A stretch of DNA of 33,495 nt from contig JAFULQ010000027.1 in the NCBI GenBank assembly GCA_017473265.1, positions 1-33,495 on the forward strand. Reading direction: 5' to 3'. Both the position numbers and the translations under genes were made by a program. This DNA is from Erysipelotrichaceae bacterium (GTDB lineage Bacteria; Bacillota_I; Bacilli_A; Erysipelotrichales; Erysipelotrichaceae). The notes under the pieces are model-generated. The model worked only from the letters and a program-made list of their open reading frames with translations, did no database searches and was not told where the DNA came from. Every line of letters starts with the position of its first letter. Positions within the stretch are counted from its first letter, which is position 1. This document shows, piece after piece, positions 1,039 to 31,400 of the stretch.

Positions 1039-1085
1039 AAAAACTCTTTCAACTTTCAAGTCAATGGGTGAAGGAGGAATTCATC

Positions 1086-1430
1086 ATGAAGAAAAAATTA
1101 AATGTTTTTGTTTACTGTAAGGTTTATTCAAAAGAACTAGAACACTTATTACATTTTCAAGAAAAAGTACTCTGTGAGTTTGCCAAAGATAATGACATGG
1201 AAATTATCGGTGTAATTCGAGATTTTTCACCACATGAAGATCTTTCATCCAAACACATGAGAAATCTTATGGACAAAATGTATGAACAAATTATTGATGC
1301 TGTTCTTTTCTATGATCAAAGCAGAATCACACCATTCAATCATCTATATACGGAGTTTGAATTATTTGCACATGAATGCGAAGTATATTTGATTCCATTC
1401 AAAAAGATATTTGATGAAAAAACACAGTAA
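1086..1430 (+). CDS. Serine recombinase (resolvase) N-terminal-like protein lacking catalytic residues
   Basis: The 114 residues follow the resolvase N-terminal fold pattern: a first strand FVYCKVYSKE, then the LxxQ helix, a middle strand EIIGVIRDF, and IIDAVLFYDQSRI near residue 75. In active serine recombinases the first strand reads YxRxS with the nucleophilic serine. Here the arginine is Lys and the serine is Tyr, and the usual second arginine after SRI is missing. There is no C-terminal DNA-binding domain. I infer a non-catalytic, protein-interacting or regulatory relic. The start at ATG 1086 follows AAGGAGGA (1071-1078); a GTG at 1068 in the same frame is less likely. It lies 47 bp after one sigma-like gene and 68 bp before the other. 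Confidence 0.6.
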   Translation: MKKKLNVFVYCKVYSKELEHLLHFQEKVLCEFAKDNDMEIIGVIRDFSPHEDLSSKHMRNLMDKMYEQIIDAVLFYDQSRITPFNHLYTEFELFAHECEVYLIPFKKIFDEKTQ

Positions 1431-1465
1431 TGATGGTTGTATTGCCTCAATGTAGAGGTCCTCCA

Positions 1466-1492
1466 CTCCTTTTCTTAATTCAAGGAAAGGAG
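1466..1492 (+). promoter_or_regulatory. 11-bp stem-loop covering the Shine-Dalgarno of the second sigma-like gene
   Basis: CTCCTTTTCTT (1466-1476) pairs along its whole length with AAGGAAAGGAG (1482-1492), with one U-G pair and a five-base loop AATTC. The right arm contains most of the AAAGGAGG that serves ATG 1499. No T-run follows, so it is not a typical terminator. It looks like a translational control hairpin. Confidence 0.6.
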
Positions 1493-1498
1493 GAGCTT

Positions 1499-1915
1499 AT
1501 GAGTTACAATCATAAAAACGAATCAAAAAAATGGAAAGAATGGAAGCAAGAAGAGGAACGCTTATTAAAAGAATTAAATGTTGAAGAACAAGTAATCCTT
1601 GATTTAAGAGAATACGATAAAAAAGACTTCAATAAGGAACGCAGATTTAGAGAGCGAGAAAATGTGACTGATATCGCTTTCTTTAGAATGCAACCTCACT
1701 ATGATAAAAAATCGATTGATAATGTCGATGACATGTTAAGTTCGATTGAAAATGAAGTTCTTTACAAAATTCTTGAAAAGCAAGACATGACAACATTACG
1801 AATTCTTTTCTTAATGACTCAAGATTATTCCATCAAGGAAATCGCAAGTCTATTAAAAATAAATGAAAGCACCATTTTTAGAAGAATGAAAAAACTTAAA
1901 AATTTATTCAAATAG
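1499..1915 (+). CDS. Second sigma-70 region 4-like helix-turn-helix protein
   Basis: A 138-residue, highly charged protein whose C-terminus (residues about 108-136, YSIKEIASLLKINESTIFRR) is a helix-turn-helix of the sigma region 4 type, ending in a basic tail. It resembles the product of 583 in layout but not closely in sequence. The N-terminal 50 residues are rich in Lys and Glu and likely helical. I chose ATG 1499 because AAAGGAGG (1486-1493) lies just upstream. The open frame extends back to 1430 but has no other site. Expression is probably gated by the hairpin at 1466-1492. A strong hairpin 26 bp after the stop ends the set. Role inferred as an element-borne transcription regulator. Confidence 0.65.
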   Translation: MSYNHKNESKKWKEWKQEEERLLKELNVEEQVILDLREYDKKDFNKERRFRERENVTDIAFFRMQPHYDKKSIDNVDDMLSSIENEVLYKILEKQDMTTLRILFLMTQDYSIKEIASLLKINESTIFRRMKKLKNLFK

Positions 1916-2309: not shown

Positions 2310-2690
2310 ATGAAAATTCAACGAGGTGACATCTTCATTGCTGACCTTAATGAAACTGAAGGATCAGAGCAAGGAGGTGTAAGACCAGTCTTGATTATTC
2401 AAAATAATCGAGGCAACAAACATAGCCCAACAACAATAGTAGCGTCCATTACTAGTAGAGCATACTCTAAAGCTCCTCTGCCTACTCACTACTATTTACC
2501 ACCAATCAAAGGCATGAAAAAACAATCACTTGTAATGCTTGAGCAAATTCGTGTTGTAGATAAGTCACGCCTACAAAAGAAAGTTGCTCATCTTACAAGA
2601 AAACAAATGATACCAATCAACAAACGAATCTTAATTAGTTTAGGTGTAACTATAAGCTCATTGAAAAAAACTGTTAGAAAGGCGATGTAG
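2310..2690 (+). CDS. mazF: MazF/PemK-family endoribonuclease toxin
   Basis: The 126-residue product matches the length and fold pattern of the PemK/MazF family: an opening RGDIFIADLNETEGSEQGG, the conserved RPVLIIQNN, TTIVASITS, and LEQIRVVDKSRL. Family members cleave mRNA at short sequence motifs and are held inactive by an antitoxin. No antitoxin gene is visible directly upstream: 1916-2309 is non-coding and structured. The toxin is therefore either solitary, controlled by RNA, or paired with a distant antitoxin. GAGGTG precedes ATG 2310. The gene ends in its own terminator, before the excisionase. Its place in a recombination module suggests element stabilisation (inference). Confidence 0.8.
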   Translation: MKIQRGDIFIADLNETEGSEQGGVRPVLIIQNNRGNKHSPTTIVASITSRAYSKAPLPTHYYLPPIKGMKKQSLVMLEQIRVVDKSRLQKKVAHLTRKQMIPINKRILISLGVTISSLKKTVRKAM

Positions 2691-2782: not shown

Positions 2783-2965
2783 ATGAAACCAGTTATATGT
2801 GAAAAAAGAACCTACTCGGTTCAAGAAATTATGAAAATATTAAACATTGGTAAAAATTCTGCCTATAAGTTAGTAGCATCCAATGCTTTTAAAACGATAC
2901 GAATTGGTAAAACAATACGTGTTTCTAAAGTATCATTTGATAATTGGCTCAACAGTCAAATTTAG
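2783..2965 (+). CDS. xis: Excisionase-family helix-turn-helix DNA-binding protein
   Basis: The 60-residue protein has the compact winged-helix layout of the MerR-like excisionase family: YSVQEIMKILNIGKNSAYKL, then a short hairpin with IRIGKTIRVSK and a closing FDNWL motif. Such proteins bend DNA at attachment sites and direct the integrase toward excision. ATG 2783 follows AAAGGAGA; the in-frame ATG at 2756 lacks a site. The stop at 2963-2965 lies 4 bp before the first integrase-like gene, so the two are co-translated. This xis-int order is the standard arrangement at the end of Tn916-like elements. Confidence 0.75.
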   Translation: MKPVICEKRTYSVQEIMKILNIGKNSAYKLVASNAFKTIRIGKTIRVSKVSFDNWLNSQI

Positions 2966-2969
2966 TGAT

Positions 2970-4280
2970 ATGGCAATCATTACAAAAAGAAGAAAGGCTT
3001 TTACTGTAGTTCACCAAGTGATTGATGAAAACGGACATAACAAACAAGTGCATGAAACATTTTATGACTACAATCAAGCTCTAAAAAGAAAAAAGCAAAT
3101 AGAAAACGATTCAGATATGATCAATATTGATTCAGAATCTACTATCGTAGACTTTTTCTATCAATATACTTCAATTGTTGGCATTAAAGAATGGAGTATT
3201 ACACGTTATGAATCCACAATGGGAATCATTAATAATTATCTAGAACCAGTATTGAATAGTATGAAAATTAAGGATATTAATGATGATTTTGCGAGTTGGA
3301 TAATAAAAGAAATGAGTAAAACCAAAGCAATTGGAAAAAGACATCAAAGAGCAACGCTTTATATGCCTGCATCCATGCAATATGCTGCGTATCTATTTTT
3401 TAAAAAAAGCTTTGACTATCTTATTAGCCAAAAGTTAATAGAAACTAATGGATTTCATGATTGTATTGTTATCAAACCTTCTTCTAATAAAAGAAAGCAA
3501 GAATGGAACATAAGCATTTTAGATCAAATATTAAAGCAATGTGAACGTGTCTCACTCTTTCTATTTATACATTTAGTTTTTGCGACTGGATTCGATATAA
3601 AAGAAGTATTGGCACTTAACTGGGACAATATTTCAAACGAACAAGACAATTTTTATATTCAATCCAATACACTGATAGAACGTATGAATATTAATTCCTC
3701 AGATAGAATTCAGAAAAAAAGAATCATCGAAAATTATGGCTCTCACGGCTTTAATAACACGAACACTACAACAATACTTTATCTAAAAGAAAAAGGCGTA
3801 AAAACGGCTAAAATTCATCCAAAACTATATAATCTACTGATGCTTTGGAAAGAAAAGCAATCTAAAGGTATAAGTGAACATGAAAACCAGCACAGGTTGA
3901 TATTTACATATTTTGATGGAAGGCCCATTGATAGTAGAACCATGAGTAAATACTACGATCAAATTATTAAACAGATGAATACTTCTAAATTATCAATTGC
4001 TACTCTTAAGAACTTTGGAGTTTCAAAAAGAAAAAATGGCATAGGAACCATTGCAGATCTTTATTACGATTGTTATCAAACAGATAACTTACCTGAAAGA
4101 AAACAAAATGGTGAAATTCAAAAAAAAGAAATTGAATCATTAACTGTTCAATCAGAAAGAATTAAAAACTACTTGCCAAAGCAAAGTTCTGTAGATGTAT
4201 CAATATTAATCCATGAACTTAATAGCAATCCAGAATTGAAAGCAGCACTAATAAAGAAACTCGAAGCAGAACAACAATAA
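2970..4280 (+). CDS. Tyrosine integrase paralogue with a destroyed active site
   Basis: The 436-residue protein is a full-length relative of the integrase at 4362. It shares the N-terminal arm-binding domain (ITKRRKAFTVVHQV), the SAM-like core-binding region (KEWSITRYES) and the same kind of C-terminal tail (IHELNSNPELKAALIKKL). The catalytic domain has lost its chemistry. In the box I segment ATGFDIKEVLALNW the arginine is Asp (residue 209), and no HxLRH, GH or YGH block can be found in the C-terminal third. The frame is intact over 1.3 kb, which argues for a retained function such as arm-site binding or regulation of recombination (inference). Start ATG 2970 is 4 bp after the xis stop; the reading frame is open further upstream inside xis. 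Confidence 0.7.
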   Translation: MAIITKRRKAFTVVHQVIDENGHNKQVHETFYDYNQALKRKKQIENDSDMINIDSESTIVDFFYQYTSIVGIKEWSITRYESTMGIINNYLEPVLNSMKIKDINDDFASWIIKEMSKTKAIGKRHQRATLYMPASMQYAAYLFFKKSFDYLISQKLIETNGFHDCIVIKPSSNKRKQEWNISILDQILKQCERVSLFLFIHLVFATGFDIKEVLALNWDNISNEQDNFYIQSNTLIERMNINSSDRIQKKRIIENYGSHGFNNTNTTTILYLKEKGVKTAKIHPKLYNLLMLWKEKQSKGISEHENQHRLIFTYFDGRPIDSRTMSKYYDQIIKQMNTSKLSIATLKNFGVSKRKNGIGTIADLYYDCYQTDNLPERKQNGEIQKKEIESLTVQSERIKNYLPKQSSVDVSILIHELNSNPELKAALIKKLEAEQQ

Positions 4281-4361: not shown

Positions 4362-5723
4362 ATGGCATCAATACAAAAAAGAAATAACAAGTATAGCGTT
4401 GTTTATACCTATCAGGATAACGAGGGAAAGAAAAGGCAAAAATGGGAAACATTTACCACATACAGTGAAGCTAAAGACAGAAAAATAGAAATAGAAAGCG
4501 ATCAAAAGAATGGTGTATTTATTCCTCCACATGCCACAACAGTTGCTGAATTTCTTGAACTATTCGTTAGTCTATATGGTGTTAAAAACTGGTCAATGTC
4601 CAGTTATAACCGTAACACTAAATTAATCAAAAACTATATCAATCCAATGATTGGGAAGATTAAACTTTTAGATGTTACTCCATTAATGATAGAAAAATAC
4701 TATCAGCAGCTTTCAAAAACACGACAAAAAAACAGTAAACACCATAAATCAAAAGAATGTGTTACAACTGGCACCATTAAACAAATACATAAATTGTTGA
4801 AGTGTGCATTTGGTGTTGCAGTGAGATGGGATTTACTTGCTATTAGCCCATTTAACAAAGTGACAACACCAAAACATGTATATAAAAAAAGGGATATCTG
4901 GACATCGGAAACGATTGTTAAAGCTCTTGAAGTATGTGAAGATCCAAAAATAGCAATTGCGATTCATCTAGCATTTGCTTGTTCAACGCGAGTTGGTGAG
5001 ATCTTAGGTCTTCAATGGAAAAACGTTCATATAACTGATGAGGATATTGATAATGACGATGCACATATTGTCATTGAACAAGTTTTAGAAACAGTATCTA
5101 AAGTTGCAATCGATGCATTAGAGAGTAAGGATATCTACTTTATCTTCCCTAATTATGCCGGTCATGAAAGCACAAAAACTTCTCTTGTATTCAAGAAACC
5201 AAAGACGAACACAAGTATTCGTAAAATATGGCTCCCTCGCACTCTTGCTTACATTTTGCGTGAATGGAAAAAGCAGCAGGAAGAATACAAAGAATTTTTT
5301 GGAACAGAATACAAAGATTTTGATTTAGTCATTTGCTATGAAGATGGAAGACCTTGCACACACAACACAATCCGTACAGGATTCAATTATTTGATAAACA
5401 AGAATAATCTTCCTAAAGTTGTCTTCCATTCATTACGACATTCAAGTACAACATACAAGCTAAAACTAAACCATGGGGACATCAAAGCTACACAAGGTGA
5501 TACAGGACATGCGCAAGCAAACATGGTAACTGAAGTGTATGGACATATTCTAGATGAAGATAGAAAAATTAATGCCCAAAAATTTGATGATACTTTCTAT
5601 ACAATGCAAGGTAATGGTGTTGATCGTAAAAGGAAAAAGGAACTGAATATAGATTCACTGGTAGATGCATTGAAAAATGAACCTGAGCTTCTTAATCAAC
5701 TCTTAAGCGCACTGAAACAATAA
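4362..5723 (+). CDS. int: Tyrosine site-specific integrase (Tn916-type), apparently active
   Basis: The 453-residue protein has an N-terminal AP2-like arm-binding domain (residues about 1-50), a core-binding SAM-like domain (60-160) and a complete catalytic domain. Visible catalytic residues are Arg210 (ACSTRVGEILGLQW), Lys281 in the beta-hairpin before NTSIRKIWLP, His356 and Arg359 (HSLRH), His383 (TGHAQ) and the nucleophile Tyr393 (EVYGHI). It would catalyse integration and, with the excisionase, excision of the element. GAAAGGAAGTGA precedes ATG 4362. Two terminators follow it. Its 3' end lies about 370 bp from a tRNA-Arg gene and about 490 bp from a broken tRNA-Arg, the likely attachment site. 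Confidence 0.9.
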   Translation: MASIQKRNNKYSVVYTYQDNEGKKRQKWETFTTYSEAKDRKIEIESDQKNGVFIPPHATTVAEFLELFVSLYGVKNWSMSSYNRNTKLIKNYINPMIGKIKLLDVTPLMIEKYYQQLSKTRQKNSKHHKSKECVTTGTIKQIHKLLKCAFGVAVRWDLLAISPFNKVTTPKHVYKKRDIWTSETIVKALEVCEDPKIAIAIHLAFACSTRVGEILGLQWKNVHITDEDIDNDDAHIVIEQVLETVSKVAIDALESKDIYFIFPNYAGHESTKTSLVFKKPKTNTSIRKIWLPRTLAYILREWKKQQEEYKEFFGTEYKDFDLVICYEDGRPCTHNTIRTGFNYLINKNNLPKVVFHSLRHSSTTYKLKLNHGDIKATQGDTGHAQANMVTEVYGHILDEDRKINAQKFDDTFYTMQGNGVDRKRKKELNIDSLVDALKNEPELLNQLLSALKQ

Positions 5724-6059: not shown

Positions 6060-6078
6060 AAAGGCTCAAAAAGCCTTT
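6060..6078 (-). terminator. Hairpin just after the tRNA-Arg 3' end
   Basis: AAAGGCT and AGCCTTT (6060-6066 and 6072-6078) pair perfectly around a five-base loop, and on the minus strand TTTT follows. It probably ends the tRNA transcript or guides 3' processing. Confidence 0.55.
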
Positions 6079-6091
6079 AATTAAGCAAGAT

Positions 6092-6169
6092 TGGCGCCCC
6101 CGATGCGATTCGAACGCATGCAAAACCGGCCTTAGGAGGGCCGTGCTCTATCCCCTGAGCTACGGGGGC
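6092..6169 (-). tRNA. tRNA-Arg(CCT), complete, with encoded CCA
   Basis: On the minus strand the gene starts GCCCCCGTA and folds fully. It has a 7-bp acceptor stem (GCCCCCG with CGGGGGC), a D-stem GCTC/GAGC, an anticodon stem CGGCC/GGCCG with loop CTCCTAA (anticodon CCT), a T-arm ATGCG-TTCGAAT-CGCAT, then G and an encoded CCA. The 12 bp before it show no promoter. Its expression most likely depends on the promoter of the broken tRNA 45 bp upstream. Short inverted sequences flank it (6083-6091 and 6179-6188), which could pair leader with trailer. It may be carried by the integrative element as a replacement copy (inference), or it may be the chromosomal copy. Confidence 0.95.
6130..6140. repeat. 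Copy of the tRNA anticodon-loop core inside the intact tRNA-Arg
   Basis: CCTTAGGAGGG here is identical to 6213-6223 in the broken tRNA. It covers the anticodon loop. It is either simple tRNA-Arg conservation or the recombination core. Confidence 0.6.
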
Positions 6170-6212
6170 ATGTTAAAGATCTTGCTAATCAATTGGTCAC
6201 AAGTTGAAGGCT

Positions 6213-6223
6213 CCTTAGGAGGG
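6213..6223. other. Proposed attachment-site core at the right end of the element
   Basis: CCTTAGGAGGG marks the point where tRNA sequence (right) changes to unrelated sequence (left). Tyrosine integrases are known to use anticodon-loop cores in tRNA genes. The integrase, excisionase and motif cluster all lie to the left. The matching core should reappear at the other end of the element, outside the window. Confidence 0.5.
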
Positions 6224-6252
6224 GCTTGTTATATCCATTTAACTAAGGAGGC
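6213..6252 (-). pseudogene. 5' half of a second tRNA-Arg(CCT), broken at the anticodon loop
   Basis: Read on the minus strand from 6252, the sequence opens GCCTCCT (acceptor), TA, GTTA/TAAC (D-stem) around AATGGATA with the invariant GG, then A, AGCCC and the loop CTCCTAA with anticodon CCT, then GG. Up to this point every tRNA feature is in place. The expected GCT that would complete the anticodon stem is absent, and no T-arm or AGGAGGC acceptor 3' strand follows. The break falls inside the 11-bp sequence shared with the intact tRNA-Arg. This is what integration into an anticodon loop would leave behind. Confidence 0.75.
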
Positions 6253-6266
6253 AAATTTGCTAGTAC

Positions 6267-6272
6267 ATTTTA
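6267..6272 (-). promoter_or_regulatory. -10 element of the original tRNA-Arg promoter
   Basis: TAAAAT on the minus strand lies 15-20 bp before the first base of the broken tRNA, the normal distance for a tRNA promoter. No clear -35 is seen. Transcription from here would pass through the broken half-gene into the intact tRNA-Arg. Confidence 0.4.
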
Positions 6273-6339
6273 ACACGAAATACAAAAGAATGGTAGATTT
6301 CCTGAAATATATGGTAAACTAATAAAGCGAGGTGAGAAT

Positions 6340-6876
6340 ATGCGCAAGCTTTATAACAACCAAATTATTGACTACAATGAAGGACAAACCGAATTTGTAG
6401 AAGAATTTAACGAACAAATTAGCTATGGTGCAATTGTATATAACCATGACTACAATAGTTATCAATACATTACATCATTTGAACAAATTGATTTTAAAAA
6501 GGAAGTATTACCAGACTACTTCAAAGTAACAACTAGCAAACTACCAAATGCTATGGAAATCCTAATGCACTATGAATTTCATCCAGAAGATGAAGAAGAT
6601 GAAGAAGTATTAGCCATTTGGAAAGAACTATCACAAGAAGAACTTCCAACCTATGCTTACGATGAAGATGGTGAAGTATATGCCAATGGATACATCAAAA
6701 TGAATCCTAAACCAAGCAAACACTCTATCTGGATTTTAAACCAACAAGGTCAAGACTATCTATATCAACAAGATATGTTATTAGTACAACCAATTATTAA
6801 GTATATGCACATTGTACAAGAAGTATTAAGAAAACATACTGTACAACCATTTGAAGAAGAAAAAATTTTACACTAA
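6340..6876 (+). CDS. Hypothetical acidic protein
   Basis: This is a 178-residue soluble protein with no signal peptide or membrane segment. It is rich in Tyr, Glu and Asp, with an acidic stretch (EFHPEDEEDEEVLAIWKEL) near the middle and a C-terminal helix. I do not recognise a family. GAGGTGA precedes ATG 6340 at good spacing. It stands alone, between the tRNA-Arg junction and a bidirectional terminator. As the first gene beyond the proposed insertion point it should be a stable chromosomal neighbour of the tRNA in relatives without the element. Confidence 0.75.
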   Translation: MRKLYNNQIIDYNEGQTEFVEEFNEQISYGAIVYNHDYNSYQYITSFEQIDFKKEVLPDYFKVTTSKLPNAMEILMHYEFHPEDEEDEEVLAIWKELSQEELPTYAYDEDGEVYANGYIKMNPKPSKHSIWILNQQGQDYLYQQDMLLVQPIIKYMHIVQEVLRKHTVQPFEEEKILH

Positions 6877-20345: not shown

Positions 20346-23300
20346 TTATTTTTTAACAATCGATGCACTATTATTTAAGCCAAAAATCTTACGAGTTGTA
20401 TTATCAGATACGAGTCCTGCTCCACCCAATACAACACCACTAGCAATCTTTCTTGTTGTTGTAAACGCTACTGCATCCGCTGCTTTACTATTTTCAGTTA
20501 AGATTAATGGTGCTTCCATTGCATATGCTAATGGACCTCCACATAATCCATCTGGGAAGTTTCTTCCATATGCCACTACTGCACTTGTTGCATTATTGAA
20601 GAATGTTTCAGCTACCATTACACTTGTTTGATAACGTGTACTTCCTCCAATACGTTTTACTTCGCCATATGTCTTAACTTCATTTTCTAATGCCGTACTT
20701 ACTGCACTTGTTCCACCAACTACATAGTATTGTTTTGTTTGAACAGTTGCTAAATAAGCCTTTTGTTGCTCACTTAGTTTCTTTCCTACTAATAAAATTG
20801 GTTTTCCACTTGCACTAGCACTTAAACTATCCGCAAATCCTGTTCCTGTTGCCACAATGATTTCTTCATTTGTCACACCAGCTTCTTTTAAGATTTCTAA
20901 ATTTGTTGCATAGCGATTATCACCAGCTAAACGTTTGATTTTATATCCAGCCAATCCACTTAATACACTATCATCAACCGCAGCAGTTCCACCTAAAATA
21001 TATACAACACCATTTGCGGTAACATTTTTTCTAATGTAATTACGAATCGCAGCACCATTCTTACCATCTGTCATTAAGATAGGAGCATTTTTCTTAGCAG
21101 CTAAATATGAACCAGCTAAAGCATCTGCGAAATTTGTACCACTTGCAACAATAATAGAATCTACTTTTGATCCATTTAGTTCCACTACTGCATCCGCAAT
21201 TTCCATAGACGTTTCATAACGTGTATTTCCAAACACACGATATACATTCGCTTCACTAATATTTACAGTTACATACTTTCTATTTGCTACAGAAGTATTA
21301 TTACCTTGAGCCATAATCGTAACTGTTACAGTACCCGTACTCTTTGGTAAAATTGTGCCATTTTGAGTAACTGTCGCAATTGAAGCATCACTTGAACTAT
21401 AAGTTAATTCTGCATTATCACTAGTCTTAGCTTCTAAGTTAACCGTTTGTTGATCTTGAGAAATGTTATATACCTCTTTAGAAGTTGTAATTTCATTTCC
21501 TTGTACTACATAAGCAGCCCCAGGAATGAATAAATTATTCTCAACATCTCTACCTAATAAAACAATCTTATCTTCATACACTTTAATATAGTAACAATGA
21601 GAACCTTTTTCAAATTCACCGCCAATGACATTGTAACTAGACCATAAGTAACCTACAGAAGCCGTATTAAATGTTGTTGGTAATTCAGTTGTTCCAGCAA
21701 ACATATTTGCTTCAGAGTTCATTTCCCAGTGACTATGACCATTGAATAAAATAATTTGTCCATATTTCTTTAATACACGTCTAAATGCTGATTCATTCGC
21801 AACACCATTCCAACCTTGACCAGGTAAAGAACCAGATACAGTGTTATATAAAGATTGGTGTAACAATACAAATACTGGTTTATTAGGATCTTCTTTAGTA
21901 ATTTCAGCCATACGTTGATCAAACCAATTCAATTGAGTTGCTGATAAGTATGCATGTAAATGATTTTGTTCTCCACCTAAATAAATGAAATGATATCCAC
22001 CAATTTCTTCATCATAATAAACTGTCTTAGGTTGTTTTTCTAAATTACGATTGAAAATCTTCACATATTTTTGGAACTGATTATCAGGATTACCCTTCAT
22101 CCAGTCATGGTTACCAATAGACATATGAATTTCAGGGAAATAATCTACAGTATTAGCAACTGAATAGTACATGCTATATACTTTCTTAAACTCAGCTTCA
22201 CTACCTGTATTAGCAATATCCCCATTAATAAAGATACCTAAAGACTCAGGACTATTTGCTTTAATATCATTTAACATCATCAAGAAATGTTCATTTGATT
22301 TTGCAACATCACCTGTAGCACCAGCATCAGTAGTAACGTGAACATCACTCATCATTTGGAATTCAACAATAGGTTTACCTAATTCTGCATAAGCAGCATT
22401 AGCAGGTAAATCCACTGAAACATATTTTTCAGATAAACTAGCACCATCAGAAGCATAAGCAATTAATTTCTTAGCTCCAGCAGGAATAATTGTATGAGAA
22501 ACCATTTGATGTGTTGTCTTTGTATCATTAAGTTTAAACTTACCTAAAGAAGTATAACCTTCTAATGGTTTACCATTTTCATCAGCCCAATACATAATAC
22601 AATCAGTAGCTGAATCATTTTCAATATCTTTTGTAACAGTAACTACACCATTCGCAAAACCATCTGTGTCATTTTCTAATATATATGTAATACCAGTTAA
22701 AGCATCAACTGCTGCACCTTCTACACTAATTTCAACAGATTCTACAACATTGTAATCATTACCATTTGAACCATCAAACAAGTAAACAATGTATTCACCT
22801 GGAGCAATTCTTGTACCTGGATTACTACTATCTGTGTTATGAATTGTTGTTTGTAAAATTGTAGGTTTACCACTTAAATGACCATTAGCTGGTTCATTTA
22901 CATAGTACCAATAGATAGAAGTTGTGTTACCAGAACCATATTTATCATTTTTACCATACAATCCTACCCAAGTCTTACTATTACCACTCGCAGTAACAAT
23001 AATCTCTTCACCAGTCTTATATACTGTCTTGTTAGTAGCTAAAGATAAATTTGTACTACCATATTTGTAATCACTAGTAATCTTAATATTTTTAATAACT
23101 GTAGAACCATCTACACCAGAAGTTAATACTAATTTATAGTCACCAGCTTTTAATGCTGCTTCATCATTTCTAAACAATGAAACTTCACCAAATGCGATTA
23201 AATCATAAGTCTTACCAGATCTATACTTAACAGATCCATTAGAGCCTTGTACAGGATAAGAATAAATAGCTTCAGTTGTAAGAATATCATCATTTGCTTT

Positions 23301-25703
23301 ATACAATCCTACAAAATCACCAATATCACCAGTTGCAGTAACTAAAATTGGTTCATTACCAGCATATGTATCTTTATCAGACTTAAGCGTTCTTTCAACA
23401 TCCTTAGATTCAATCGTTCTAACCATGATTTTAGATTCATCCCACATTAAATCCCAGTTAAAACCAGATTTTGTACATTTCATAATATCTAACCATGTAC
23501 CATTAGTAATATATTTCAAATACTTTTGGCTATAGTTAAATGTTTTATTTGTATCAACATATTTCCATACATCATAAGCAGGCTTCTTAGAACCATCATC
23601 TTGTAATAAACCTAATTTATAACCAGTTTGATCATGTAATTGGAAATATGCAATTTCATCAATACAATCAATATGTGCAGCACGATAATAATATTGTGCA
23701 ACAGAAGCTGCTTGTTCATAAACAGAAGTTAAATATTTATCTGCAGAAACAGAATCTTCATCTAAGTTACAAATACTTGTTTCTGTTAATGAAACTGTAC
23801 GCATTTCTGTACCATTATATTTATTTTCAGGTTGTTCAAAATATAATTGGTATAATTCTAAATTAGCAGCTGTAATCCATGGAGAAGTCTTCCAATCACC
23901 TGTAATAGGATCCGGATTTCCATTTTTCCCACTCCAACTTGGGTCAGTTTTTGTTGGATTACTAGAAGTTGTTCCAATTGGATATGGATGGACTGCAATA
24001 CCCCAGTCATAATCCCCACGAGCTTTTTCGTATTTACTAATCCAGTCCAAAATATGTTTTGGCGCATATGAATTTTTACGAATAGAATTTCCAGTATTGT
24101 TATAACTATCATAACAATCTGTTGCCCAGTTATGAGTTAAAGAAACAACAACTTTAGCACCAGAGTTATATTTTTTAACAGCTAAGTTTGCTAAACGTAA
24201 TGTACGAGCAAATTCTTCCATGAATATGTTAAATTCAACTCTTTGATAATCACCATTTTTATCTTTATTAGGTTGTAATAAATACCAGTCATATGTATAG
24301 TCAATTTCATTACCAACAATAAACTTATTAACAATACCTAATGTAGAAGATTGAGAATAACGATTCGCCATGAATTCCATAGCCGCAATCCAATAATCTC
24401 TACCTCTTTCAGTAGAAGTATTGAAAGCCATTGTTTGTCTATTTTCTTTCGCATCCATATACAATAATGCACTTGGATAATCTTCAGTATATGTTTTAGC
24501 CCAAGAAATAAGCACTAAGCTTACATTCATACCTGCTTTTGTATAAGCAGAAATCAAACCATCTTGAGAATACACATAATCCGCATTGAAATAGAAAGTT
24601 TCACCATTACTTTCAAATTCAATAACATCCCCACGATTTGAATTATCAATAGGATTACCATTTTTATCTTCATTCGCAAGAATTAATGAACACAAGTCCA
24701 TATTAATTACAGTGTTAGAAACACCCATTTCAATTGCTTCATTAATAGTTGTATGATCTTCAAGAGTTAAACCCTTTTTAGTATGTACTTTAAAAGGTTG
24801 TTTATTACGCAATGAACTAATTTCAGATGCATAATAAGGACCAGCTAACACTTTACCATCTTGAATAATATAGTATTTAGAATACAAATTATCAAAACCA
24901 TCTTTATCATAACGATTTAATGTAACAGTTGTACTTGTCCCACAAGTATAATCAGCAACGGCAATACCCTTTTCAGAAACAAACTTACTCATACCGTTCA
25001 TAGAATCATCACTAGGATATTCTTCAGCATTAAAACGATATAATTGAGCAACACCACTCTTACCAACTGCATTTACACTAATTTTAATTTCACTACGATC
25101 AACACTAACAACAACTTGTGGTCCATCAACATCAGCTAAAGACAAATCAGGTTCTACATTCATCAATTCGACTAATTCCTCTTCAACTGTTTCATCAACA
25201 ATAGTTTCTTCATCCACCACAGTTTCATCTTCAACTACTGTTTCTTCCTCAACAGTAACTTCATCTTCGACAACAGTTTCATCTTCCACAACTTCTTCAA
25301 TAACAGTAATTTCATGTTGTTCAACTACTTCTTTATTTGCATTCAATAATACGACTTTATACTCTCCAACAGCTAAAAATAAGTTATCTGTTCTATCAGT
25401 TGTATTTCCATCGAAAATATTGAATGCAACACCACTTACAACTCCATCTGCACCATTTACTGCATACCAATAATATGGAGTTGCTTGTTCTTCAACAGTT
25501 ACTACATCATCTTTAGCAAATACAGCTACATATGCTTCTTCTTCATATGTTGCAGTAACCATTACACTTTCACCATATGTATATTCTGATTTATCCGTCG
25601 TTAAATAATTTTCACTTGCGAAAACACCTAATGATAAATTGCCAATACACATTGTGACCGCTAATACAAATGTTAATACTTTACTAAATAATCTATTTTT
25701 CAT
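20346..25703 (-). CDS. Giant cell-wall protein: Ig-like, DUF5722, metallophosphoesterase, CWB2 repeats
   Basis: This 1785-residue secreted protein is numbered from ATG 25703, which follows GTGAGG. A signal peptide (1-29, ending GVFAS) is followed by an Ig-like module (33-135), an acidic Val/Glu/Asp linker (136-182), and a DUF5722 domain (about 195-765). In DUF5722 the segments IVGNEID (Glu466) and VSLTETSIC (Glu641) resemble acid/base and nucleophile of clan A glycosidases. Two further Ig-like modules (775-993) and a short beta-rich domain follow. Next is a calcineurin-like phosphoesterase (1112-1390) with SDVH, NGDIANTG, GNHDW, LLHQS and GHSHW, so the metal ligands are complete. A Big_2-like Ig domain (1405-1484) and three CWB2 repeats (1488-1780) end the protein. 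It would be held on wall polymer and act on an external glycan or phosphorylated substrate (inference). It is the last gene of the operon. Confidence 0.85.
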   Translation of the reverse strand: MKNRLFSKVLTFVLAVTMCIGNLSLGVFASENYLTTDKSEYTYGESVMVTATYEEEAYVAVFAKDDVVTVEEQATPYYWYAVNGADGVVSGVAFNIFDGNTTDRTDNLFLAVGEYKVVLLNANKEVVEQHEITVIEEVVEDETVVEDEVTVEEETVVEDETVVDEETIVDETVEEELVELMNVEPDLSLADVDGPQVVVSVDRSEIKISVNAVGKSGVAQLYRFNAEEYPSDDSMNGMSKFVSEKGIAVADYTCGTSTTVTLNRYDKDGFDNLYSKYYIIQDGKVLAGPYYASEISSLRNKQPFKVHTKKGLTLEDHTTINEAIEMGVSNTVINMDLCSLILANEDKNGNPIDNSNRGDVIEFESNGETFYFNADYVYSQDGLISAYTKAGMNVSLVLISWAKTYTEDYPSALLYMDAKENRQTMAFNTSTERGRDYWIAAMEFMANRYSQSSTLGIVNKFIVGNEIDYTYDWYLLQPNKDKNGDYQRVEFNIFMEEFARTLRLANLAVKKYNSGAKVVVSLTHNWATDCYDSYNNTGNSIRKNSYAPKHILDWISKYEKARGDYDWGIAVHPYPIGTTSSNPTKTDPSWSGKNGNPDPITGDWKTSPWITAANLELYQLYFEQPENKYNGTEMRTVSLTETSICNLDEDSVSADKYLTSVYEQAASVAQYYYRAAHIDCIDEIAYFQLHDQTGYKLGLLQDDGSKKPAYDVWKYVDTNKTFNYSQKYLKYITNGTWLDIMKCTKSGFNWDLMWDESKIMVRTIESKDVERTLKSDKDTYAGNEPILVTATGDIGDFVGLYKANDDILTTEAIYSYPVQGSNGSVKYRSGKTYDLIAFGEVSLFRNDEAALKAGDYKLVLTSGVDGSTVIKNIKITSDYKYGSTNLSLATNKTVYKTGEEIIVTASGNSKTWVGLYGKNDKYGSGNTTSIYWYYVNEPANGHLSGKPTILQTTIHNTDSSNPGTRIAPGEYIVYLFDGSNGNDYNVVESVEISVEGAAVDALTGITYILENDTDGFANGVVTVTKDIENDSATDCIMYWADENGKPLEGYTSLGKFKLNDTKTTHQMVSHTIIPAGAKKLIAYASDGASLSEKYVSVDLPANAAYAELGKPIVEFQMMSDVHVTTDAGATGDVAKSNEHFLMMLNDIKANSPESLGIFINGDIANTGSEAEFKKVYSMYYSVANTVDYFPEIHMSIGNHDWMKGNPDNQFQKYVKIFNRNLEKQPKTVYYDEEIGGYHFIYLGGEQNHLHAYLSATQLNWFDQRMAEITKEDPNKPVFVLLHQSLYNTVSGSLPGQGWNGVANESAFRRVLKKYGQIILFNGHSHWEMNSEANMFAGTTELPTTFNTASVGYLWSSYNVIGGEFEKGSHCYYIKVYEDKIVLLGRDVENNLFIPGAAYVVQGNEITTSKEVYNISQDQQTVNLEAKTSDNAELTYSSSDASIATVTQNGTILPKSTGTVTVTIMAQGNNTSVANRKYVTVNISEANVYRVFGNTRYETSMEIADAVVELNGSKVDSIIVASGTNFADALAGSYLAAKKNAPILMTDGKNGAAIRNYIRKNVTANGVVYILGGTAAVDDSVLSGLAGYKIKRLAGDNRYATNLEILKEAGVTNEEIIVATGTGFADSLSASASGKPILLVGKKLSEQQKAYLATVQTKQYYVVGGTSAVSTALENEVKTYGEVKRIGGSTRYQTSVMVAETFFNNATSAVVAYGRNFPDGLCGGPLAYAMEAPLILTENSKAADAVAFTTTRKIASGVVLGGAGLVSDNTTRKIFGLNNSASIVKK
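25170..25310 (-). repeat. Low-complexity acidic linker coding repeat
   Basis: The DNA codes for irregular units of the form VEDETV or VEEETV, with about ten near copies, in the giant protein between its first Ig-like module and DUF5722. It is a flexible, acidic spacer and a likely site of length change by slippage. Confidence 0.7.
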
Positions 25704-25720
25704 ATTGTACCTCACAATCA

Positions 25721-28435
25721 TTAATAGATAGTAATTTCTGTTTTACTATCAAGACCGAAAATATTTCTAACAGTTTTATCTGAAACTAAACCAGCTCCAC
25801 CTAAAACTGCTCCGTCTTTAATACTTCTAATTGATGTATATGCTATTGCATCAGCTTCCTTACCGTTTTCCGTTAAAATTAATGGAGCACTTAAAGAATA
25901 TGCTAATGGGCCACCACATAATCCATCCGGGAAGTTTCTACCATACGCAACAATAGCACAAGTTGCATTAGGGAAGAATTCACTTGCAACCATCGCACTT
26001 GTTTGATAACGGTTTGCACCACCCAAACGTTCTACTGAACCATACGTTTTTAATTCAGCTTCTGTAGCTGCACTTACAGCACTCACACCACCAATAATGT
26101 AATATTGACTAGAAGAAACTGTACTTAAATATGCTTTTTGATCTGCAGTTAAGCCTTTATTCACAAGTAAAATAGGTTTTCCACTTGCACTTGCACTCAA
26201 ACTATCCGCAAATCCATTACCAGTCGCAACAATAATTTCCTCATTTGTTACAACAGCTTCTTTTAAAATTTCTAAGTTCGTTGCATAACGATTATCACCA
26301 GCTAAACGCTTAATTTGATAACCTTCCAAATTAGAAACAACTGCACCAGGTAAAGCTTTAATTCCACCTAGTAAGTAAACCATACCACCAGCATTCACGT
26401 TTTCTCTAATAAATGCTTGAATATCTGCACCATTTTTACCATTTGACATTAAAATTGGTGCACCTTTTTTAGCAGCCAAGTAACTACCAGCCAATGCATC
26501 TGCAAAACCAGTACCACTAGCAATAATGACTGTATCATACTTATTGCCTCCAGTAACCTCTTTCATATTCTTAGCAATTTGATAAGAAGTTTGATAACGA
26601 GTTGCCCCAGCAACACGTTTTACACCTTCAGCACTCACAATATTTCTCTTAATGATGTTATCTTTATTCCACTTGGCATCCCAATTGAAATCAGACTTCA
26701 CCGTTTTCATAACATCTAACCAATCAGACTCTTTAAGATGATTTAAATATAAATTAGAATACGTAAAAGACTTATTCGTATCAATATACTTCCAAACATC
26801 ATAAGCAGCCTTTTTAGTTCCATCTTTTTCAACTAAACCTAAACGATACGCATCTTGGTCATGCAATTGGAAATACGCAATTTCATCAATACAATCAACA
26901 TGCGCTGCACGATAATAGAACTGCGCAATAGACGCTGCTTGTTCATAAGTAGAAGTTAAATATTTACTATTAGAAACATCTTCCTTCTTTTCAGAACAAA
27001 TACAAGCTTCAGTAATAGAAACAGAACGCATTTCTGTACCGTTGTACATATTTTCAGGTCTTTCAAAATACAATTGATACAATTCTAAGTTTGCTGCAGT
27101 AACCCATGGAGAAGTCTTCCAATCACCAGTAACAGGATCAGGTTCCCCTTTACCTGTATACGAAGGATCAGTTACCGTAGGCAAACTAGCTACAGTTCCA
27201 ATAGGATATGGATGCACAGCAGCACCCCAGTTATAGTCACCACGAGCTTTTTCATATGTATTTAACCAATCTAACATTGCTTTTGGTGCATATGAATTAA
27301 TACGGAAACTATTACCACTATTGTTATAACTATCATAACTATTTACTGCCCAGTTATGAGTTAAAGAAACCATAACTTTCGCATCTGAATTATACTTCTT
27401 AACAGCTAGATTCGCTAAACGAAGCGTTCTAGCATATTCTTCCATAAAAGTATTAAATTCTACTCTTTGGTATTTACCATTTGCATCCTTATTTGGTTGC
27501 AACAAATACCAGTCATAAGCATAGTCAACTTCATTACCAACAATAAACTTATTAACAATACCTGTATTCACATCTTTAGAATAACGATCTGCTAAAAATT
27601 CCATTGTCGCAACCCAATACTTCAAGCCATCACCAGAAGTATTGAAAGCCATAGTTTGACTATTATCCTTAACATCAACATACATCAATGAAGAAGGATA
27701 TGTTTTTGTATATGTCTTAGCCCAAGAAATTAGGACTAAATTAACATTAATTCCCGCTTTAGAATAAGCAGAAATCAATTGATCTTGCATACTAATATAT
27801 CCACTATTGAAATAGAAAGTTTCACCATTACTCACAAAAGGAATATAGCTACTATTACCACTATTATCAACAGGAATACCATTTACATCTTCATTCGCAA
27901 TAACGAATTCACTTAAATTCATATTAATAACTGTATTAGATACACCCATATCAATTGCATCAACAATTGTAGAAGCATCTTCAAGAGTTAAACCCTTTTT
28001 ACTAACTGCTTCAAATGGTGCAAAACTACGAACAGACTCAATTTGACTTGCATAATAAGGACCAGCCACCAAATTACCATTTTCAACAATATAGAATTTA
28101 GAGAATAAGCGATCCTTACCATTTGCATCATAACGAGCAAATTCAACTATTTTACTATCTAAATCAGCTACAACTTCACCAGAATTTGAAGTTTTATTAC
28201 TCATACCAACCATTGTATCGGTTGCATAATAAGCATTCGCATCTAAACATACAACTTGTGCACCACTAGAAATGTCAACTCCTTCAACATTTACTACGAT
28301 TTTTGAAGAGTTAGCACTTACTTGAACAACCGTATTAGCGCCATTAGACGCAAATACGGTTGTAGGAAGTTGAGTTAAGCACATAGTTACTGTAAGAGCA
28401 AATACTACTAATTTTTTTATAATTGCCTTACCCAT
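25721..28435 (-). CDS. Cell-wall protein: DUF5722 domain with three CWB2 repeats
   Basis: The 904-residue secreted protein (numbered from ATG 28435, after GAGGGT) has a signal peptide (1-30, ending TVFAS), a DUF5722 domain (about 36-600) and three CWB2 repeats (606-900) with the typical GATRYQTSYQIA, SGTGFADALAGSYLA and GGIKALP motifs. It is the minimal version of the protein encoded downstream, without Ig, linker or phosphoesterase modules. The putative catalytic glutamates are Glu302 (IVGNEVD) and Glu476 (SITEACIC); AAVHPYP (His408) may add a substrate-binding histidine. The preceding gene's TAA and an in-frame ATG overlap as TAATG (28449-28445), 12 nt before the chosen start, so translation is probably coupled. 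Confidence 0.85.
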   Translation of the reverse strand: MGKAIIKKLVVFALTVTMCLTQLPTTVFASNGANTVVQVSANSSKIVVNVEGVDISSGAQVVCLDANAYYATDTMVGMSNKTSNSGEVVADLDSKIVEFARYDANGKDRLFSKFYIVENGNLVAGPYYASQIESVRSFAPFEAVSKKGLTLEDASTIVDAIDMGVSNTVINMNLSEFVIANEDVNGIPVDNSGNSSYIPFVSNGETFYFNSGYISMQDQLISAYSKAGINVNLVLISWAKTYTKTYPSSLMYVDVKDNSQTMAFNTSGDGLKYWVATMEFLADRYSKDVNTGIVNKFIVGNEVDYAYDWYLLQPNKDANGKYQRVEFNTFMEEYARTLRLANLAVKKYNSDAKVMVSLTHNWAVNSYDSYNNSGNSFRINSYAPKAMLDWLNTYEKARGDYNWGAAVHPYPIGTVASLPTVTDPSYTGKGEPDPVTGDWKTSPWVTAANLELYQLYFERPENMYNGTEMRSVSITEACICSEKKEDVSNSKYLTSTYEQAASIAQFYYRAAHVDCIDEIAYFQLHDQDAYRLGLVEKDGTKKAAYDVWKYIDTNKSFTYSNLYLNHLKESDWLDVMKTVKSDFNWDAKWNKDNIIKRNIVSAEGVKRVAGATRYQTSYQIAKNMKEVTGGNKYDTVIIASGTGFADALAGSYLAAKKGAPILMSNGKNGADIQAFIRENVNAGGMVYLLGGIKALPGAVVSNLEGYQIKRLAGDNRYATNLEILKEAVVTNEEIIVATGNGFADSLSASASGKPILLVNKGLTADQKAYLSTVSSSQYYIIGGVSAVSAATEAELKTYGSVERLGGANRYQTSAMVASEFFPNATCAIVAYGRNFPDGLCGGPLAYSLSAPLILTENGKEADAIAYTSIRSIKDGAVLGGAGLVSDKTVRNIFGLDSKTEITIY

Positions 28436-28446
28436 GTTTACCCTCA

Positions 28447-31400
28447 TTATTTTTTAACAACGATTTCATTAGCATTTGCTAAGCCGAAAATCTTTTGAGT
28501 AGTCTTATCAGATACTAATCTAGAACCACCTAAGATCATACCAACTTTAATATCTCTAGTAGATGTATATTCTACTGCATCAGCTTCTTTTCCATTTTCA
28601 GTTAAGATTAATGGTGCACGTAATGTGTAAGCTAATGGACCACCACATAATCCATCTGGATAATTGCGTCCATATGCTACCACTGCACTTGTCGCATTAT
28701 TGAAGAATGCTTCCGCAACCATTACACTAGTTTCATAACGAGTTTTTCCTCCAATACGACTAACAGCACCAAATGCTTCTACTTCTTTTGCTAAAGCAGC
28801 ACTAACTGCACTTGTACCACCAATTACATAATATTGTTTTGTTTGTACACTAGCTAAGAACGCTTTTTGTTCTTTACTTAGTTTCTTACCAACTAATAAA
28901 ATTGGTTTTCCACTTGCACTAGCACTTAAACTATCCGCAAAACCTGTACCTGTAGCAATAATAATTTCTTCATTTGTTACACCAGCTTCTTTTAAGATAG
29001 CTAAATTTGTTGCATAACGATCTTTACCATCTAAACGTTTTACAGTATAACCTGTTAAACCGCTTAATACTTTATCACTTACCGCCGCAGTTCCACCTAA
29101 AACATATACAGTTCCACCAGCAGTAACATTATTTTTAATATATGTCTTAATAGCAGTTGAATTCTTACCATCTGTCATTAAGATAGGTGCATTTTTCTTA
29201 GCTGCTAAATAAGAACCAGCTAAAGCATCCGCAAAATTCTTACCACTTGCAACAATAATAGAATCGAATGTTTCACCATTATTTAATTCTTTCATTGTAT
29301 TAGCAATTTCATATGAAGTTTCATAACGAGTATTACCAAATACACGATTCACTTTGTCAATAACAGGTTTTTCAGGTTTAGATGTAACAACATATTGACC
29401 ACCACAAACAGTACATGTATAAACAACATCACCATCTCCAGTAATACCACCATTATCGAATGTACATTCTTCTCTTACTTCTTCACCACATCTAGAACAT
29501 ACAGAATAGTGTTCTTTATGCTCAGGATCAAATGTTAATGTACCAGTTACATCATGTCCCAATGGTTCAATTGGAACTAATTCTTCTGTTCCATCTTCAT
29601 ATTTAACATATTTTTGACCCCAATCAGTACATGTAGGTTGCATTAAAATTTCCTCAAACGCTGCAGTTTTTACAATTGAGAAATATGCAATATGACGAAC
29701 ATTAGAATATCCAGCATCACCATATACAACAACCGTATAATCACCAGCATCAAGATCAATGTAATCACCTAATTTAACATCTACACCATTTCGATTTTCT
29801 TGGCCGTCTTTAGCATCAACCCAATACCAGTAATCAGATGTTGGAACACTACTTGCATCACCATCACCACTAATCTTGCCGTAGTAAATACCTACCCAAG
29901 AATCACCAACAACACCATCAGCAGAAACATTTACTACTACATCTTGAATTTCTTTTTCATTGAATTCAACTGAGGCCTTATTCGCAACATCCTTACCATT
30001 AAGCTTCATGCCATATTCTGTTTCATCAGTTTGAGAAGTAATATGAACTTCAACTTCAGACAATACATTAGAATAACCACTATCACCGAACAATACAACT
30101 TTATATGTTCCAGTAGTTAAAGAATCAAAACGCTCTATATTTCTGAAATCGAACAAGTTAACTTCAACACCATTACGATTATGACCATCACCAACTACAT
30201 AGTACCAATAGAATGATACAACACCACCTCTATTAGGGTCATATTTATCATTTTCAGCATATAAACCAACCCAAGAACCATCATTTGCACAATTAGCTGT
30301 AACATTTAATGCTTCACCAATAGAAATGTCAGTATCTTCAACTACTAAATACTTAATAGTATAAACTCCTTGGCAAACCTTACATGTATAAACGGTTTCA
30401 CCCTTGTCATTTGTACCTGTCTTTTCATAATCACAGTATTCAACTTGCTTATGATTTTCATCATGAGCACATACTTTTGTATGTTGATGAGATGCAGGTA
30501 AATATGTCCAAGCATCTGGATACTTATGACCTAAAGCAGGAATATTAATCGTTGCTGTCTTACCGTTTGCATAAGTAACAACTTTAGTACCCCATTCTTC
30601 ACAAGTAGCAGCCTTCGTTACTTGTTCACTTACTACAGTGTCATTATAGAACTCTTCTGTATATGTTCCTTTACATACAGAACATGTATATGTCTTAATA
30701 CCAGCTTCTGCACCATTTGGTTGTTTAGTAACTACAGCTTCACCAAATGTACATTCTGCTTCTTCAACATGTGTTGCATCATTTGCACACACATGACTAT
30801 GAGACTTAGTAGCTTCATCAAATACCCAAGCACCATACTTATGGCCTAGAGCTTTTAATTCAGGGAATACGTCGATACCTTCTACCAATGTAGAACCATC
30901 ACTGTAATATGTAGTCTTATAACCATCTTTATCACAAGTAGGTTGTGTAACTACCGTATTTAATACCTTAGAAGTAACTTTAATATCAATTTCTTCAATA
31001 ACGCGAGAATACTCACCATCACCAAATAATACAACCTTAAAGTCACCAGCTTTATATTCTCCACCACGTCCATTTTCATCACGTGTATCTAAGATATTAA
31101 CCGTTGAATCTTCTTCAGATAAGTAATACCAGAAAATAGATTTTACTCCACCAGCTTCAGGATTATAAGATTCACCTTTCTTATATAAACCAACCCATGC
31201 ACCATCACCAGTAAAGTTACCAGTTACATAAATAGGTTCACCATATTCGAATGTTGTTTTATTAACAACTAAATTATCTTCAGAAGTATATGTTCCTCCA
31301 CAAACTTCACACTTGAATGTAATTGTAGTCATTGCAATTGAAGAAGAAGTGAATACACAATTTTCAGTAATCTTATGACTAGTATCATTAGCACAGATAT

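Follow-up and report, generated by a model that had tools for sequence, protein, structure and literature searches.

The locus analyzed here lies on a stretch of 33,495 nucleotides from an Erysipelotrichaceae bacterium (assembly GCA_017473265.1, contig JAFULQ010000027.1), hereafter the window, which makes up an entire contig (G000:C26). Read along the minus strand, it presents the 5' half of a host tRNA-Arg(CCT), 44 bp of intervening sequence and a whole tRNA-Arg(CCT), followed by a region encoding a tyrosine integrase (Table 1). The broken half, GCCTCCTTAGTTAAATGGATATAACAAGCCCCTCCTAAGG, can be parsed as GCCTCCT TA GTTAAATGGATATAAC A AGCCC CTCCTAA GG, with the acceptor 5' strand, the D-arm, the anticodon stem 5' strand and the anticodon loop in succession, and is followed directly by non-tRNA sequence. 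This bears out the proposal, made in an earlier note on this DNA, that a tRNA-Arg(CCT) stops here within its anticodon loop. The same note had placed a whole tRNA-Arg(CCT) 45 bp beyond the break; ARAGORN does identify such a gene at 6169-6092, behind a spacer of 44 bp instead. The fold predicted for this tRNA (-34.8 kcal/mol) is a perfect cloverleaf: all four stems (acceptor, D, anticodon, T) are fully paired, the variable loop is somewhat long, and position 73 is a G. Its Rfam score of 56.8 bits was obtained when the short stretch was searched alone, and it is absent from the Rfam listings of both the whole window and the whole genome; tRNA surveys that use fast filters may miss genes of this kind. 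Both tRNA sequences contain the 11-mer CCCTCCTAAGG (6213-6223 and 6130-6140), which occurs at only these two sites in the 1.80-Mb assembly. The 11 bp shared by the two genes were thus read correctly, even if the functional core is shorter (8-9 bp; CTCCTAAG). The hairpin that follows the tRNA in the window, similar to those found in several relatives, was not reported by the terminator scan (6060..6078), and the stability predicted for the precursor fold does not exceed expectation (z -1.1).

Table 1. Features of the window, and extents of single elements that could be read at both ends in relatives.
Feature	Coordinates	Strand	Evidence or remarks
Sigma-70-region-4-like proteins, element cargo	568-1038, 1430-1915	+	
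Resolvase/IS607-like fragment, element cargo	1068-1430	+	
pemK RNA RF02913	2124-2183		Rfam
PemK/MazF-type toxin, element cargo	2310..2690	+	PF02452 1.4e-31
Second tyrosine-recombinase-like protein, catalytically degenerate, upstream of integrase	2883..4280	+	PF00589 1.2e-06; residues lost
Tyrosine recombinase (integrase)	4362..5723	+	PF00589 1.3e-13; R-K-H-R-H-Y present by alignment
Hairpin AAAGGCTTTTTGAGCCTTT, possible terminator, just 3' of replacement tRNA	6060..6078	-	sequence
Whole replacement tRNA-Arg(CCT), CCA encoded	6092..6169	-	ARAGORN, Rfam 56.8 bits, fold
44-bp element arm, from core to replacement tRNA	6170..6213	-	sequence; without consensus sigma-70 promoter
Crossover core CTCCTAAG, anticodon loop and position 39	6214..6221	-	limits from two-ended relatives and from shared arm beside three host halves
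5' half of host tRNA-Arg(CCT), attL side	6213..6252	-	sequence and comparison with intact relatives
Extended -10-like TGTTAAAAT, likely host tRNA promoter, 5' of broken half	6267..6275	-	sequence; shuffle p=0.13, weak alone
Chromosomal neighbour gene, host-flank marker	6340..6876	+	homologues beside intact tRNA-Arg(CCT) in G002, G028, G007, G025
Element in G110	484923-531127		single element, both ends; 46 kb
Element in G248	214860-276770		single element, both ends; 62 kb
Element in Monoglobus NZ_OY725736.1	418705-468937		single element, both ends; 50 kb

The part of the element that lies in the window amounts to 6.2 kb. As the earlier note had it, an intact integrase stands on the side of the whole tRNA, and its catalytic residues are in place. 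The recombinase-like protein upstream of it has an intact frame, in which Arg-I has become D/N, the HxxR motif T/A/MxxK, and the Lys and His-III are gone; it is possibly an accessory or directionality subunit. Pairs of a dead and an active recombinase also occur in G156, G023 and the second element of G009. Because the window is a whole contig, the far end of its element cannot be read there. When the assembly was searched for that end with the 11-mer core, a T-arm/acceptor pattern for the host 3' half and an anticodon-loop-to-T-loop pattern, the only real tRNA matches were the two known sites or the replacement tRNA, and searches of the same assembly found no gene from the other side of the G002 tRNA and no PF02534 or TraG-type coupling protein. 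The window element may be incomplete in this assembly, mobilizable only, or different in kind. With its far end and bulk absent from the assembly, its type and size have to be taken from relatives, and by that comparison it is probably an ICE or a relative of one. Elsewhere in the window, three very large adjacent genes for surface-protein-like products of 1791, 908 and 1563 aa occupy positions 20346-33138 of the minus strand; they have repeated similar C-terminal regions, and the first combines a match to a clostridial S-layer protein model with a phosphodiesterase-like stretch.

Homologues of the integrase were detected in 18 other genomes of the order, with 42-62% identity over the matched part. 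The layout of a host 5' half, CTCCTAAG, an arm of 32-85 bp and a whole tRNA-Arg(CCT) was found, accompanied by integrase homologues, in another 14 genomes or records, namely G248, G247, G067, G083, G062, G141, G056, G107, G095, G009, G110 and G023, together with annotated records of two members of the class Clostridia, Monoglobus pectinilyticus and Subdoligranulum variabile. These 14 cases are not all independent, the arm of G248 being also that of G247 and a second arm being common to G056, G107 and G095; their recurrence indicates that the arrangement in the window is not due to chance. In the latter three genomes a single arm and tRNA stand behind three different host 5' halves, with identity starting at CTCCTAAG, and this set is the cleanest proof of the element boundary. 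The integrase lies beside the whole tRNA in some elements, such as that of the window, and at the opposite end in G110 and Monoglobus; whichever end the integrase occupies, attL is the side of the whole tRNA. One more locus (L042 of G156) has the arm and the tRNA and was left out of the count, its outer side being without a tRNA half. Around positions 3228-3250 of this locus, outside the replacement tRNA, the core sits in a perfect inverted repeat (GACCTCCT-AAGC-AGGAGGTC), an arrangement that may correspond to an attP or circular form, or to another site. In G248 the arm that follows the core (L087 4860-4925; G248:C3:214860-214925) consists in part of an inverted copy of a tRNA 5' half, GGTTGTGCTCTACCAGCTGCCTTACGGGG, and could pair with the host half; a similar stretch is found in OY725843. 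Scans of viral contigs with three integrases yielded no relatives; among human faecal 'Bacteriophage sp.' records with related integrases, two hold the core and a tRNA 3' half, and none a whole tRNA.

Relatives that can be read at both ends reveal what becomes of the host gene. In addition to the single elements of Table 1, G009 and G023 have outer halves separated by 85 and 141 kb, with two integrases between them. Joining the host 5' half to the far 3' half produces a tRNA-Arg(CCT) recognized by ARAGORN in five out of five two-ended loci, and the program finds no tRNA at any single junction, attL or attR, of the same five loci (the window contributes attL only to this junction test). The far end, which the earlier note had singled out for inspection, hence consists, in these relatives, of the core and, attached to it, the host 3' half that was missing. 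The attL and attR of the single elements have 8-9 bp in common, and this core covers the 7-nt anticodon loop plus one or two adjacent positions.

As for the nature of the carriers, the G110 element encodes a relaxase, a coupling protein, a TrbL/VirB6-like protein, a topoisomerase, ParB and RepA_N, and that of G009 a coupling protein and a TraG-like ATPase. The Monoglobus element bears VirB4 CD1110, VirD4 CD1115, a relaxase, MobC, tet(O/32/O), tet(40), sigma-70 factors and PemK, and in G248 a Mob_Pre relaxase was the only hit among ten proteins tested. Judging from this gene content, the elements readable in full look like conjugative elements. The 50-kb Monoglobus element, with its CD1110/CD1115-type transfer genes, is one that we take to be a Tn1549-like ICE; the window shares with it a related integrase and a similar order of sigma-70, PemK and integrase genes, whereas the part of the element in the window is without transfer genes. 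The Monoglobus pectinilyticus record itself (NZ_OY725736.1; L132/L129) is labelled a plasmid, yet contains many housekeeping genes. ICEs inserted at an anticodon loop in Acidithiobacillus have reportedly been the subject of an earlier paper.

The reading that we favor, with a probability of about 90%, is that an integrative element has split the host tRNA-Arg(CCT) and supplies a whole foreign tRNA-Arg(CCT) behind the break. It would bring together the broken half, the foreign tRNA, the integrase, the empty sites and both element ends seen in relatives, the selection apparent on the cloverleaf and the lack of another copy in the assembly, all of them read from sequence. The earlier note had further proposed that the whole tRNA is transcribed from the host promoter. 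For the window this is plausible: TGTTAAAAT precedes the broken half, no convincing promoter is present in the 44-bp arm and the G141 arm measures only 32 bp, which together make read-through from the host promoter, with release by RNase P, the likely mode of expression. When both sides were compared with the promoter consensus, the host TGTTAAAAT reached a shuffle p of 0.13, weak on its own, and the arm returned no consensus promoter, its best match abutting the tRNA start and being no better than shuffles. As a general rule the proposal does not hold, since the arms of Monoglobus (TTGACA-17-TAAAAT) and G110 (TTGCAG-17-TATAAT) possess promoter-like sequences of their own. Those two arms argue for an alternative in which the arrangement is as described and the replacement tRNA is driven by a promoter of the arm or element. 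We consider it unlikely, albeit worth keeping in mind, for the shortness of the window and G141 arms and the shuffle-level match in the former speak against it.

A more radical departure would be ordinary restoration of the gene by an element-borne 3' part, which is the usual scheme of tRNA-targeting islands (Islander, PMC4383910) and would make the broken half a displaced fragment of another tRNA. We reject this explanation as highly improbable. The host half adjoins the likely host promoter and the flanking gene, and what comes next is no tRNA 3' half; none of the five attL junctions folds as a tRNA, and the same whole tRNA stands beside three different host halves. Moreover, the whole tRNA of the window differs from the broken half in its 5' part as well, with 30/40 identical positions overall and 21/31 before the core, in keeping with the view of the earlier note that a whole tRNA is supplied rather than a 3' part. 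The identity of the native gene can be established from relatives. G002, a member of the same genus labelled Erysipelotrichaceae, has one intact tRNA-Arg(CCT) beside an orthologue of the 6340 gene (73% identity), and a single intact tRNA-Arg(CCT) likewise adjoins the 6340 homologue in G028, G007 and G025. The broken half matches the 5' part of the intact tRNA at 34/40 positions in G002 and 36/40 in G028, against the 30/40 of its match to the whole tRNA of the window. This and the position of the 6340 homologues identify the broken half as the native gene and assign the whole tRNA to the element.

These relatives also provide the unoccupied sites that the earlier note had envisaged, and none of them has both tRNAs, the pattern it had named as contrary to its proposal. 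Tandem tRNA genes and tRNA pseudogenes are common, and the locus could accordingly be seen as two native tandem tRNA-Arg(CCT) genes, one now a pseudogene, with an integrase nearby by coincidence. In the element-free relatives examined, the site holds a single tRNA; the layout follows the integrase family across many genera, and missing 3' halves located 46-62 kb away in relatives complete the 5' halves. We therefore discard this possibility as having almost no probability. An assembly chimera of two unrelated contigs joined at the core, which the fragmented assembly and a contig end inside the element might suggest, is just as implausible and is rejected, the junction type being present in many independent assemblies, among them a named complete record and the single-contig genomes G009 and G110.

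With the insertion of an element carrying its own tRNA as the preferred reading, the number of tRNA-Arg(CCT) genes in the host becomes relevant. The gene had been described as often single-copy, and one whole Arg(CCT) gene was indeed found in the assembly of the window, which is ~95% complete, so that another could be missing. A whole-genome search with a pattern for intact Arg(CCT) genes had the element copy as its only match in this assembly, and the same is true of G110, G248, G247, G056, G107, G141, G095, G083, G067 and G062. The native gene is the sole match in G002, the other two matches in G009 are broken halves, and G023 has a second tRNA in the element region. The pattern is strict and missed G156, where the T-loop differs, making this good but not absolute evidence for a single copy. 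Across 12 element tRNAs, 252 of 252 stem pairs are kept, and changes on both sides of the pair are seen at 17 of 21 positions. This conservation by compensation points to selection for a functional cloverleaf, as expected of working tRNAs.

In the mechanism put forward here, recombination through the 8-9 bp core would join attP to the host tRNA-Arg(CCT) at its anticodon loop, and neither junction would rebuild the host tRNA. The whole tRNA of the element, 44 bp inside the crossover and codirectional with the host gene, would come to lie immediately behind the broken 5' half and the host promoter that precedes it. There it would be transcribed (in the window, mainly from the host promoter), released by RNase P and charged, and would sustain AGG decoding. 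A host that lost it would die, so that host and element would be tied together, with the former probably dependent on the latter for an essential molecule. Because the replacement tRNA retains the core, it should itself constitute a new attB at which later elements can stack. The order in G009 is a host 5' half, an arm, the 5' half of the element's own tRNA, the same arm again and the whole element tRNA; farther in, at a distance of 32 kb, comes a 3' half from another element, with CGAGGAC as its acceptor strand, and at 85 kb the original host 3' half, whose acceptor strand reads AGAGGGC. The second copy of the arm and the element-tRNA 5' half in front of it imply that the replacement tRNA has served as attB in this genome, and the simplest reading of the whole would be repeated integration at the replacement tRNA with loss of short inter-core segments.

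Whole tRNAs that stand in for a split host gene have been documented in the tRNA-dependent lysogeny of actinobacteriophages (Guerrero-Bustamante and Hatfull, mBio 2024, PMC10865867), where genetics showed the whole cognate tRNA to be required for lysogeny, cores span 8-17 bp and the tRNA is rebuilt at neither junction. The worked example of that study is phage Fionnbharth, whose tRNA has been demonstrated to possess a promoter of its own and overlaps a separate gene of the phage (PMC10865867). The elements described here have in common with that system a tyrosine integrase, a tRNA attB, a short core, the lack of reconstruction and a whole tRNA of the same isotype as substitute. They differ from those temperate phages in being, so far as their gene content shows, ICE-like elements of Bacillota and not phages, in the position of the tRNA 32-85 bp inside the crossover and codirectional behind the host promoter, in the use of the tRNA-Arg(CCT) anticodon loop, and in that the replacement tRNA can be a landing site for stacking. 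In a passage of the same paper (PMC10865867), its authors suggest that tRNA-dependent integration occurs elsewhere and cite prophage Lj965 of Lactobacillus johnsonii as a possible case outside Actinobacteria. As that citation presents it, Lj965 is likewise from Bacillota, leaves the split tRNA not rebuilt and encodes a cognate tRNA, while being a prophage, unlike the ICE-like elements here. Substitution of host tRNA genes by element tRNA genes is also described for Sinorhizobium meliloti prophages and likened to tRNA-dependent lysogeny (PMC11476347), again with prophages, and Alphaproteobacteria, in place of ICE-like elements of Bacillota. Islander-type islands (PMC4383910) share the tyrosine integrase, the insertion inside a tRNA gene and ends made of tRNA fragments, but use element sequence to make the split gene whole again. 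In the present elements the host gene remains split and a separate whole tRNA is provided; at neither junction does element sequence complete the split tRNA, as it would in a canonical island. The limited literature collection searched contained no report of tRNA-dependent integration by ICEs. Known from phages, this mode of integration appears to be new in its carriage by ICE-like elements of Bacillota and in having the tRNA built into the attachment region.

The comparative analysis conducted here thus extends tRNA-dependent integration to ICE-like elements of gut Bacillota, one of them with tetracycline resistance genes, and explains how a single-copy tRNA gene can be used with a core of only 8-9 bp. 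Having no need to match the 3' half of the host tRNA would give such elements a broad host range, as exemplified by the same element in three very different host tRNAs. It also yields a simple rule for locating element ends, which boundary-mapping tools based on tRNA restoration could miss, and predicts that loss of the element without precise excision would be lethal. We suggest, tentatively and at slightly less than even odds, that a conjugative lineage of gut Bacillota might practice an obligate takeover of this tRNA, in which integration places the tRNA behind the host promoter and each replacement becomes the next landing site. If so, the only tRNA-Arg(CCT) of the host would be repeatedly overwritten, and addiction to the element would be exerted through an essential RNA instead of a toxin. 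More generally, elements of this kind would provide a route for the horizontal replacement of bacterial tRNA genes.
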